From: [Actinomadura] parvosata subsp. kistnae
GTDB taxonomy: Bacteria > Actinomycetota > Actinomycetes > Streptosporangiales > Streptosporangiaceae
Assembly (NCBI RefSeq): GCF_900323885.1
Contig: NZ_OOHJ01000018.1
Location: 1,351,001 to 1,415,000, forward strand
Reading direction: 5' to 3'
Length of the DNA: 64,000 bases
Shown here: piece by piece, positions 57,289-60,555 of the stretch
Numbering within the stretch: position 1 is the stretch's first letter
Layout: each line of letters begins with the position of its first letter
The notes under the pieces: generated by a model
Told to the model about the DNA's origin: nothing
The model's database searches: none
The model's input: only the letters and a program-made list of their open reading frames with translations
Position numbers and translations under genes: made by a program

Positions 57289-57372
57289 GCTAAACCCGTG
57301 AATCCCAGGCGTGCTCGCCGAACCCGCGGCTACCAGGCGTGCTCGCTGAACCCGCGGCTACCACACGTGCTC
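57289..57372. repeat. Three exact-length 28-bp copies starting at a gene end
   Basis: On the minus strand GAGCACGTGTGGTAGCCGCG(GGTTCAGC) contains the last codons EHVW and the TAG stop of the next gene. Copy 2 keeps TGGTAG; in copy 3 it has decayed to TGGGAT. All three are 28 bp. Confidence 0.88.
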
Positions 57373-58227
57373 GCGCCAGCCCGGTGGCTGGTGCCACTCC
57401 GTCCAGCCGTGGCCCGTGCGCCCGTCCTCGGTCTCGTACGCGCACAGCGCCCTGGCGAACCGGGCCGCCACGCCCTCCGGCGAGGTCAGCGTCACCGGGG
57501 CGAAGGCGACCGGCCGCACGGTCGTGACGCAGCCGGGGAAGCGCAGCACCGACTCCACCGGCCGGTCACCGTCGAACACCGTGGCCGCCCCGAAGCCCTC
57601 GACATGCGCCAGGTCCCCCTTGGCCGCCAGGAACGCCGGCCAGGGCAGCTCCATGCCCACGTTCGCGCGCATGCCGTGCAGGTACGTGCCGTCGTCCAGG
57701 CGGGCGCTGCTCCACAACCACGAGATCGACCACCAGTCGCGCACGCCCCAGCTGTGGTCGCGCTCGCCGTGTCCCCGGAAGGGCAGGCCGCCTATGGTGC
57801 CGGTGACCTCGCAGGGAACCTCGTAGCGCGGGGTGAGCGCGTAGCCGTACGCGCCTCCCGCCGTGCGGAACTCCAGGTCCAGGCTGAGCTCGGCGGAGCT
57901 CAGCCGGATGTGCGCGCGCTCGAAGGGGTCCGTCGTGGCGTGCGCGGCCGTGTAGCCCGGGCCCGCCACCGCCAGGTCGCCCCGGGGCAGTGCCGCCTCG
58001 TGGTCGATCACCTCGACCCGGTCGCCGTCGGCCGTGACCAGGCAGGCCCAGTACCAGGCGCGGCCCCACGCCGGGTAGAGGCCGAGGCGGACGTAGCCGC
58101 CCGCCCTGCCGTCCTCCGAGACGAAGTCGTAGTACCAGGACTCGTTCCACAGCGGCTCGCCGCCGGGGGCGTGCCGCCGCTCGTCCTCCGGGCCCAGGGG
58201 CCACTCGCCCATGTTGACGATCCGCAT
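57358..58227 (-). CDS. CrtC/hydroxyneurosporene-synthase-like beta-barrel protein (DUF7064-type)
   Basis: 289 residues from ATG 58227 (GGGAGG four bases upstream). Trp- and Tyr-rich, with WNESWYYDFVSEDGRAGGYVRLGLYP, GHGERDHSWGVRDWWSISWLW and a repeated beta pattern. GERDHSWGxRDW is characteristic of lipocalin-like CrtC/DUF7064 proteins, which include hydratases and proteins of unknown role. No signal peptide. It lies 38 bp downstream of the MNIO cassette in the same direction and might belong to its transcript. Confidence 0.78.
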   Translation of the reverse strand: MRIVNMGEWPLGPEDERRHAPGGEPLWNESWYYDFVSEDGRAGGYVRLGLYPAWGRAWYWACLVTADGDRVEVIDHEAALPRGDLAVAGPGYTAAHATTDPFERAHIRLSSAELSLDLEFRTAGGAYGYALTPRYEVPCEVTGTIGGLPFRGHGERDHSWGVRDWWSISWLWSSARLDDGTYLHGMRANVGMELPWPAFLAAKGDLAHVEGFGAATVFDGDRPVESVLRFPGCVTTVRPVAFAPVTLTSPEGVAARFARALCAYETEDGRTGHGWTEWHQPPGWREHVW

Positions 58228-58265
58228 GCCGCCTCCCAAGCGCTTGCTGCCGAACCCGGCCGGGA

Positions 58266-58787
58266 TCAGCGTATGCCAGGCAGGCGCGACCACCAGCGGC
58301 GCTTCGGGGGCGGCTCGCCGGGCATCCGGCCGCGCTCGCGCAGCCAGGCGGCGAAGTCGTCGGCGTCGGCGCGGTAGCCGGGCGGGGGCGTGGCGCGGGC
58401 CCGCGCGTACGCGGCGAACTCGGCGGCCAGGTCAGGGCCCGCCGCCGCGGCCGCGTCCGGGCGGAGCCTCGCCACGATCGCGCGCCGCTTGGAGACCAGG
58501 CTGACGGCCTGGGCGCGCATGCGCTCCAGGTCGAAACCCTCGGGCACCTCCGCCCCTGCCACCAGGGCGGCCACGACCCGCCCCTGCGCCTCCGCCAGCC
58601 GCCTGCGCCGCTCCTCGTCCCGCTCCCGCGCCTCCTCCGGTGAGACGCGCTCTGGTGCGGCCTGCTCTTGGGCGGCCTGCTCTTGTGCGGCCTGCTCCGA
58701 TACTTCCAGTGGTGGGGCGGTGAGTTGCGGCGGCTGCGTCGGCGGCCCCTGTGCGCCGGCGAGCCGCCGCGCCTCCATCGGGGTCAT
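58266..58787 (-). CDS. Helical partner protein of the MNIO cassette
   Basis: 173 residues; ATG 58787 overlaps the MNIO stop (ATGA). The N-terminus is Gln/Pro/Ala-rich with [14 protein letters not shown] repeats, followed by a charged helix ([20 protein letters not shown]) and a C-terminal domain [22 protein letters not shown] ... [34 protein letters not shown]. The same kind of helical domain accompanies DUF692 genes in Streptomyces. By analogy with MNIO systems it may deliver the substrate to the enzyme. This is inference. Confidence 0.75.
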
Positions 58788-59599
58788 CGCGCCTGCCCCG
58801 GCACCGCCATCGCGGCCCTGATCCTGGACAGCTCGTCCGCCAGCACCGCGTCGCTCGGGTACTCGTCGTCCCACTCCAGCAGCACCCCGGGCGGCGTGAC
58901 CCGGGAGCACAGCTCGGTCAGCAGGTCCAGGACGGCCTGGGGGGCCGTCGTGGTGTGCGTGTCGTGCCAGATGCCGTGGTGCTCGTAGCCGCCGGCGACG
59001 TGGACGTACGCCAGGTGCTCCAGCGGCAGCGTGTCCAGCGCCGCCACGGCCGGCAGGCCCAGGTTGACCTGGTTGGTGTAGAGGTTGGCCACGTCGATCA
59101 GCAGCCCCACGCCGGTGGCGGCGACCAGCTCGGCCAGGAACTGCGCCTCGGTCAGCTCGTCATCGGGCCAGCCGAAGACGGCCGCGACGTTCTCCAGGGC
59201 CAGCGGGACGGGCAGCGCGTCCTGGGCTCTGCGCACGTTCTCGATGACGACCTTCAGCGACTCGCGCGTGCGCGGCACCGGCAGCAGGTGCCCCGCCTCG
59301 ATGCCGCCGCCGCGGACGAACGCCAGGTGCTCGCTGACCAGCGGCGCGTCCAGTGCCTGCGCGCACGCGGCCAGGTGGGCCAGCCGGGCCGGGGAGGGCG
59401 GCTCCGCGCCGCCGACCCCTAGCGAGACCCCGTGGGGGATGACCGGCAGGCCCCTGGCCCGCAGGACGCGCAGCGACTCCGGCAGGCGGCCCGGCCGGAT
59501 GTTCTCGGCGACCACTTCGAGGAAGTCGACGCCGCCCATCCGCTCGATGGTCAGGTCCAGCTCGGGCCGCCAGCCGATGCCCACTCCGAGGCTCGCCAT
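58784..59599 (-). CDS. MNIO (DUF692) iron enzyme
   Basis: 271 residues with the TIM-barrel landmarks of DUF692: [89 protein letters not shown], and [23 protein letters not shown] (quoted in parts). His, Glu, Asp and Asn in these motifs hold two or three irons in MbnB, TglH and bufferin-type enzymes, which oxidise cysteine or other residues of peptide substrates. It starts 2 bp after the TIGR04222-like gene, whose tail is its likely substrate. Confidence 0.9.
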
Positions 59600-59601
59600 G
59601 G

Positions 59602-60555
59602 TCAGCTTCCCCCGCCGCAGCCACCGCCGCCGCAGCCGCCGCCCCCGCCGCAGCCCGACGATCCGCTTCCGCAGCTCGACGAGCCGCCGCCGCAGCCGTA
59701 GGAGCCGCCGCCGTGCGAGCCGCTGCCGCCGTACCAGGCGCCGCCGCGGCGGGACGAGCCGCTGCCCGCGTACGAGCTCCTGGGCCGCCGCTCCCGCTGG
59801 GGCGCCCGCCGGCTGAGCTCGGCCCGCAGCTTGGCGTCGCGCAGCTCGCCGAGGCCGTAGAGCGCGAGCGGCACCGGCCCGTCGGCGCCGGGGGCGTGGG
59901 CCCGCCTGGCCGAGTCCAGCGCGTCCCGGCCGGACTCGGTCAGCGTGTGCCGCACGATGCGGCGGTGGTTGCCGAGCACGGCCTCCGCGCCGATCATCGT
60001 GCCCAGGAAGACGAGCGTGGCGAGCAGGGCGTGCAGGTTCGGGGCCAGGGCCATGGTCAGGCCCTCGATCGCGAACCCGGCGTACGCGGGCACCGACAGC
60101 ACCCGCAGCCGTACGCTCAGCCTGCGGGCCTGGACGAACGCCCCGTCGGGCAGCAGCAGCCCCTGCGCCGTGAGGCGCTGCTTGATCTCCTCCATGGCGA
60201 GGCTCCTGACGGCCTCGATCCTAAGCGACATCACGGGCAGGCCCGAGCGGGTGGCGACCACGCCCAGCACCGCCTCCTCGATGGGCTCCCGTGCGGTCGT
60301 GCTGGTGATGACGCGGTGCACCCGTCCACCGCGCGAGACGCGGAGCTCGTGCCGCTCCGCGAGGATGGCGATGGCCGTGTCGGCCACCCTGGTGGGGCCA
60401 CCGACCAGGTACGCCAGGTCGTAGTGGCCGAGCTCCCCCAGCCCGGATCCCGTGGCGGCCGACCTGATCGCGGCGTGCGCCCGGGTGATGGCGGAAGTGG
60501 TGACAGCGGCGTAAGCCGCGATGGCCACCGATACGATGAGCAGGAACAGGTCCAT
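59602..60555 (-). CDS. TIGR04222-type membrane protein with Gly/Cys-rich tail
   Basis: 317 residues, GGGGAGG six bases before ATG 60555. TM1 is at 3-22 and two more TM segments lie near 155-200. Between them is the conserved soluble domain ([46 protein letters not shown]). After about residue 265 the protein becomes Gly/Ser/Tyr/Cys-rich, with five cysteines in GC spacing ([20 protein letters not shown] then [10 protein letters not shown] at the very end). This is a typical RiPP-like tail, here fused to a membrane protein. Directly followed by its probable modifying enzyme. Confidence 0.88.

Follow-up and report, generated by a model that had tools for sequence, protein, structure and literature searches.

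A minus-strand MNIO cassette in [Actinomadura] parvosata subsp. kistnae with the cysteine tail of a TIGR04222 membrane protein as its likely substrate

Introduction

MNIO enzymes that work with DUF2063-type partners make copper-binding 5-thiooxazoles (PMC12668002, PMC13419390, as far as the accessible parts of these sources go). The locus described here, in a stretch of 64,000 nucleotides from [Actinomadura] parvosata subsp. kistnae (the window), raises the question of whether such an enzyme acts on the end of an integral membrane protein and, if so, on which side of the membrane the modified residues would lie. The idea of an MNIO acting on TIGR04222 tails is already published. According to the accessible text of Antoine et al. 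2025 (PMC12452194), TIGR04222 proteins, found mostly in Actinomycetota, often adjoin MNIO genes and have Ser/Gly/Cys C-terminal regions, subsets of them are proposed as MNIO substrates, and the short partners of the enzymes are named PME-type 2. The gene pair, the Gly/Ser/Cys tails as substrates and the PME-type-2 partners are the same here, and the PTH2-MNIO-TIGR04222 order of that study was also found. The cross-tabulation of cysteine tails against MNIO-bearing genomes and the MNIO-partner fusions are reported here and were not found in its accessible text.

Organisation of the cassette

The cassette occupies positions 58266-60555 on the minus strand and runs from the TIGR04222 membrane protein through the MNIO to a helical partner (Table 1). 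A sequence-only reading of the locus had described three coupled leftward genes, and this was confirmed: 2 bp separate the TIGR04222 and MNIO genes, and the MNIO and partner genes overlap by an ATGA, with the partner start inside the MNIO stop. Its identification of a TIGR04222 protein bearing a five-cysteine Gly/Ser/Cys tail beside a DUF692/MNIO gene also held, at the scores in Table 1. A GTP-type PEP carboxykinase gene lies upstream of the cassette and a DUF7065/DUF7064 gene, which probably starts at the ATG at 58227, lies downstream; the latter occupies the same position, directly behind the partner gene, in several Nonomuraea and relatives. The closest named relatives of the window MNIO also belong to Nonomuraea and are at most 93% identical, which makes Nonomuraea the most likely genus of the window. 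No metal gene was found among the six window genes scanned, a PHROGs search gave no match, and a promoter and terminator scan found none.

Table 1. Features of the cassette and its downstream neighbour, in window positions
Feature	Position	Strand	Evidence
TIGR04222 membrane protein, 317 aa	59602..60555	-	NCBIfam TIGR04222, 95.9 bits (cut-off 43)
C-terminal Gly/Ser/Cys tail, about residues 260-317, five Cys; presumed substrate	59605..59778	-	sequence
MNIO (DUF692) iron enzyme, 271 aa	58784..59599	-	PF05114, 264.8 bits (cut-off 25)
Helical partner, 173 aa, PME-type-2-like	58266..58787	-	present at 122/125 loci
DUF7065/DUF7064 protein, 3' of partner	57358..58293	-	Pfam PF23212, 70 bits; PF23213, 44 bits

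Related loci were gathered for comparison and comprise most of the over-cut-off matches among the matches listed. A relative of the partner adjoins, or is fused to, 122 of the 125 distinct MNIOs of the window type, and a TIGR04222 gene lies within 2.9 kb of 121 of them, although both shares are biased upward because the loci were partly gathered via a TIGR04222 search. Since a partner relative accompanies so many of the enzymes, the grouping is not a matter of chance. The three MNIOs that lack a partner comprise two with fewer than 200 bases downstream and one (L164) whose partner lies in an ORF merged with another frame.

The number and arrangement of TIGR04222 genes varies between loci. Eleven Nonomuraea loci (L164-L166, L169, L171, L172, L175, L178, L180, L182 and L184) have two in tandem before the MNIO, where the window has one, and in several of the upstream copies the tail opens with a common DCxG(S/A)CG motif. 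At L158, L159, L160, L161, L162 and L073 the partner is followed by an additional TIGR04222 gene whose product has no TM2-TM3 hairpin; this product has a cysteine tail in L159 and L160 and none in L158, L161, L162 and L073. In another genome (G505, L065 5398-6174) two cysteine-tailed TIGR04222 genes precede an MNIO that is split across two reading frames, through either a sequencing error or decay.

The enzyme and its partner

Nine residues of the window MNIO (H56, H91, E136, D169, N172, H200, D213, H215 and E242) match all nine iron ligands given for TglH in the accessible text of PMC10880893. They are invariant in all 128 aligned MNIO rows of the window type, which held a few trimmed duplicates and represent 125 distinct enzymes, and the same nine ligands occur in 13/13 MNIOs of other types. 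The enzyme scores below the NCBIfam equivalog cut-offs for BufB (190.2 bits against 310), HvfB (149.4 against 360), MbnB (40 against 325) and ApyH (129.6 against 400). As far as the available accounts of MbnBC and TglHI go (PMC10880893; 7dz9, 8hi7), these systems share with the cassette the enzyme family, the iron ligands and a two-subunit logic, but the window partner is apparently not long enough to hold a complete RRE domain, and the substrate would be a membrane protein.

The window partner has no family match at E <= 0.001 in Pfam or NCBIfam. The DUF2063 Pfam profile gave it no match at E <= 1 and reached E 0.0027 in one of 31 partner relatives. Encoded right after the MNIO and carrying no DUF2063 Pfam signature, the partner classes with PME-type 2; neither it nor the window tail protein has a Pfam match, and they class neither with PME-type 1 nor with the bufferin and captophorin precursors. 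The sequence-only reading had called the partner helical and Gln/Ala-rich. The first term agrees with an AlphaFold2 model that is helical throughout (pLDDT 84.7), whereas the second fits the N-terminal part; the conserved part is at about residues 64-145, as defined by an alignment of 30 of the 31 relatives (the L164 partner, from the merged ORF, being left out). The best VIA match of the model, among 201 Foldseek candidates, was MbnC (7dz9_C, residues 1-87), with Z 6.2 and rmsd 3.3 over 84 aligned residues against Z 4.8 for the next row, helical models being prone to give middling Z scores by chance. Foldseek itself returned nothing at E <= 0.001 and placed 7dz9_C at E 8.1, so the likeness of the modelled partner to MbnC, the partner of the methanobactin MNIO, is suggestive only. 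A search of PDB sequences with the partner profile gave no match up to E 10.

The association of the partner with this type of enzyme is specific in that it accompanies none of the 13 MNIOs of other types. There are also 16 cases, 15 in genus g3 and one in the window's family, in which MNIO and partner form a single ORF. An artificial fusion of the enzyme HvfB to its partner HvfC is described as functional in the accessible text of PMC13419390, and the natural fusions therefore support a partner role for the third gene. In bufferins, oxazolin and captophorins, as described in the accessible parts of PMC12668002 and PMC13419390, an MNIO and a partner likewise oxidise repeated cysteines, but the precursors are exported peptides with EGKCG or DUF2282 motifs and the partners are full DUF2063-RRE proteins, whereas the window combines a short partner with an integral membrane protein.

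The cysteine tail and its relationship to the enzyme

All five cysteines of the window membrane protein lie within its last 40 residues, in a low-complexity C-terminal region behind the TIGR04222 domain of the kind that TIGR04222 membership requires. The tail contains no EGKCG motif. Among 136 cysteine tails Gly directly follows 84% of the 697 cysteines, where 48% is expected from composition, and gaps of 3-6 residues between successive cysteines predominate. The sequence-only reading took the tail for the likely substrate and the third gene for the partner, and both proposals gain support from co-occurrence, from the fusions and from the nine conserved ligands; on such sequence evidence the tail is probably what the MNIO modifies.

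Co-occurrence was assessed in 172 genomes, made up of a family set and an added draw from the class and treated by one rule throughout; these genomes are draws, whereas the loci are chosen ones. A cysteine tail and an MNIO occurred together in 111 genomes and neither occurred in 39, while 20 had the MNIO only and two the tail only. The 102 genomes of the family set gave 80 with both, 19 with neither, three with the MNIO only and none with the tail only, and the corresponding figures outside the family were 31, 14, 17 and two. In one of the two tail-only genomes (G637) the contig ends within an MNIO gene whose start follows the tailed gene; in the other (G686) a run of N in the ORF precedes the cysteines, and the case is probably an assembly-gap artefact. 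One further genome (G049; L028, L246) had no match to the TIGR04222 profile and is absent from the genome tallies. Gly/Ser-rich C-terminal ends carried at least three cysteines in 135 of 144 cases in MNIO genomes, against 2 of 15 (G637 and G686) in MNIO-less ones, from which it follows that cysteine, and not Gly/Ser, tracks the enzyme. The window genome has two TIGR04222 genes; the MNIO-adjacent one is cysteine-tailed, and the other, whose last residues are ...GPGQGGS, lacks both a tail and an MNIO within 4 kb.

At the level of individual proteins the relationship is looser. A set of 206 distinct TIGR04222 proteins was compiled from family, phylum and named-relative loci, leaving out fragmentary matches and those running off the locus and with trimmed duplicates removed. 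An MNIO lay on the same strand within 4.5 kb of 154 of them, of which 136 had at least three tail cysteines. Of 46 with no MNIO nearby (flanks of at least 2.9 kb), 16 had at least three tail cysteines and 35 at least one cysteine after the domain; six were put aside for short flanks. Thirteen non-adjacent cysteine-tailed rows of the family set come from MNIO-bearing genomes and some of these are near an MNIO that the rule missed, G505, with its MNIO in two frames, and G404, where the MNIO is truncated at the edge of the retrieved sequence, being counted as non-adjacent though the MNIO is there. The suggestion that such tails always lie beside DUF692 thus fails as regards strict adjacency, but it survives in that nearly all the examined genomes with a tail have an MNIO.

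Fisher tests gave p values down to 2e-21 with ancestry ignored. In a FastTree phylogeny of 229 proteins (L333 and short rows dropped, G637 counted as MNIO-bearing) seven supported independent pairs differ in MNIO, and two to three of these also differ in tail, each as expected and none in the opposite sense, which is not significant. The link between tail and MNIO is one-way and inflated by ancestry. A natural loss was found in two genomes of genus g250 that are about 92% identical around the cassette: compared with L068, L083 (G586) lacks everything from the tail through the MNIO and partner into the DUF7064 gene, most of which is gone, and the TIGR04222 ORF is open and ends at the position of the first tail cysteine of L068. 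This is the one case of joint loss of tail and enzymes with the core kept.

Known MNIO products are mostly peptides, according to the accessible text of PMC12452194, and by that precedent the modified tail might be cleaved from the protein and set free as a RiPP metallophore, leaving the membrane core as a mere carrier. This is very unlikely, given that TIGR04222 cores persist without cysteine tails in the 39 MNIO-less genomes and that no protease or exporter was found among the few neighbour genes scanned. The accessible text of the same source states that MNIO genes are absent from a third of the genomes that have TIGR04222 genes. The persistence of cores in the 39 genomes argues that the core is functional in its own right.

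Fold and membrane orientation of the TIGR04222 protein

Hydropathy and charge profiles indicate three likely transmembrane helices in the window protein, at about residues 2-20, 150-170 and 174-192, with a winged-helix-like soluble part between TM1 and TM2. The AlphaFold2 model (pLDDT 80.7) has a confident TM1-TM2 part, a long hairpin and more helices, and the tail within it is of low confidence (block pLDDT 42-51). By the positive-inside rule, flanks rich in Lys and Arg face the cytoplasm. In 134 cysteine-tailed proteins with the hairpin the mean number of Lys and Arg was 0.03 before TM1, 4.04 after TM1, 3.10 before TM2, 0.35 in the TM2-TM3 loop and 3.78 after TM3. Whether cysteine-tailed or not, all 190 hairpin proteins have more Lys and Arg in the flanks than in the TM2-TM3 loop, and 184 of the 190 have more after TM1 than before it. 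Among 16 members without the hairpin the charge is higher after TM1 in ten, including both of the cysteine-tailed ones (2/2). The N-terminus of the window protein has no Lys or Arg before TM1 and has them after it, unlike a typical signal peptide. By the rule these counts put the N-terminus outside and the tail inside, and the tails of TIGR04222 proteins are probably cytoplasmic. The sequence-only reading had envisaged display on the surface, an interpretation that the charge counts do not support.

The cytoplasmic placement contradicts Antoine et al., the accessible text of which (PMC12452194) predicts a periplasmic tail from topology and shows two modelled proteins. If that prediction were right, the tail would be exported to the periplasm or exterior after being modified before or during insertion, in the manner of bufferins, the precursors of which are exported, as are those of oxazolin (PMC12452194, PMC13419390, in the parts available). 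Such an exported tail is nevertheless improbable, being opposed both by the charge pattern in 190/190 hairpin proteins and by the weak matches of the soluble part to winged-helix, DUF2207_C and GPP34 families. Among 43 members these matches were to DUF2207_C (17), HTH_Crp_2 (10), MarR_2 (7) and GPP34 (4). We take winged-helix, DUF2207_C and GPP34 folds to be cytoplasmic. The likeness to DUF2207_C and GPP34/GOLPH3 proteins is weak, in that the scores shown for ten members are below the curated cut-offs and the window protein had no match at E <= 1. A profile-profile comparison of TIGR04222 with DUF2207 (29 relatives) gave E 0.27, which is not significant. The VIA match of the TIGR04222 model to Vps74, of the GPP34 family (residues 40-249, Z 7.8, 140 aligned, rmsd 4.8), is a lead only; other VIA matches were mostly helical matches to the transmembrane part, and Foldseek gave nothing at E <= 0.001. 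The fold lists contained no RRE family, an absence that carries no weight. A search of PDB sequences with the TIGR04222 profile returned mostly low-complexity Gly matches together with weak winged-helix regulators and was set aside. The term SCO6045 was not found in the literature searched.

The exception of genus g3

The sequence-only reading had named as a refuting case a locus that kept the enzyme beside a neighbour with no cysteine tail, and in part such a case exists, in genus g3. Fourteen g3 genomes have an MNIO and, among the proteins fetched, no TIGR04222 protein with a three-cysteine Gly/Ser tail; in four of these genomes a TIGR04222-like gene located elsewhere encodes an end with a single cysteine. 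At ten g3 loci (L228-L232, L236 and L239-L242) an MNIO-partner fusion with intact iron ligands lies upstream of a TIGR04222 gene without tail cysteines. A search near these ten loci for another suitable Gly/Ser/Cys ORF found none; a candidate at L240 was rejected as lying in another frame, and other conserved small cysteine-containing ORFs look like shadow frames. The Pfam-identified neighbours at L239 are a PTH2 protein, a chlorite-dismutase family protein, which we take to be HemQ-like, and a flavin amine oxidase, presumably HemY-like.

At all ten loci the inner end of TM1 in the tailless g3 protein bears a C-x-x-L-C pair. At least two cysteines occur in the first 40 residues of 12 of 17 MNIO-adjacent proteins without tail cysteines, against 1 of 136 cysteine-tailed proteins and 8 of 52 non-adjacent ones. 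In g3 either the target cysteines now occupy a different cytoplasmic position or the enzyme has some other target. Since g3 keeps MNIO-partner fusions beside tailless TIGR04222 proteins, the tail is not the sole possible substrate.

The g3 genomes, which keep the MNIO without a cysteine tail, and the shared ancestry that explains much of the statistics lend some weight to the view that the tail cysteines act unmodified, as a thiol metal clamp or redox tail, and that the MNIO has another substrate and is merely co-inherited with the tail gene. We consider this unlikely in the face of the tight coupling of the genes and the persistence of Gly/Ser ends without cysteines in MNIO-less genomes. It is also opposed by the only other MNIO match in the window genome (L004 1309-2649), which belongs to a different type, carries a long extension at its C-terminus and has neither such a partner nor a TIGR04222 gene within 1.5 kb on either side. 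An opposite-strand gene at L004 reads, we presume, like the cytochrome b subunit of a bc complex.

Proposed mechanism and implications

The best explanation overall, to which we give rather better than even credence, is that the cassette makes a membrane-anchored, MNIO-modified protein with its tail in the cytoplasm. The TIGR04222 protein would have three membrane crossings, an external N-terminus and an internal C-terminus, such that the winged-helix-like part and the Gly/Ser/Cys tail would both be on the cytoplasmic side. A cytoplasmic MNIO, bound to its short DUF2063-like partner, would oxidise the tail cysteines there without an export step. By analogy with bufferins and oxazolin we infer that thiooxazole-like chemistry is involved, the cysteines most likely becoming groups of the thiooxazole type or other derivatives of Cys. 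The result would be a module tethered at the inner membrane face that binds metal, probably copper, or is redox-active, though a metal or redox role of the tail is put forward tentatively, at rather less than even confidence. A fuller version, which is possible rather than probable, is that such an inner-face module is made on a membrane-resident protein whose own winged-helix part replaces the RRE missing from the partner, which would set the product apart from both released peptides and exported bufferins.

If this explanation is correct, the substrates of MNIO chemistry would include integral membrane proteins, modified on their cytoplasmic side, as well as small exported peptides. With the natural MNIO-partner fusions a one-chain enzyme is already available for in vitro study, and the role to be sought for these proteins would be inner-face copper or redox handling and not surface display.
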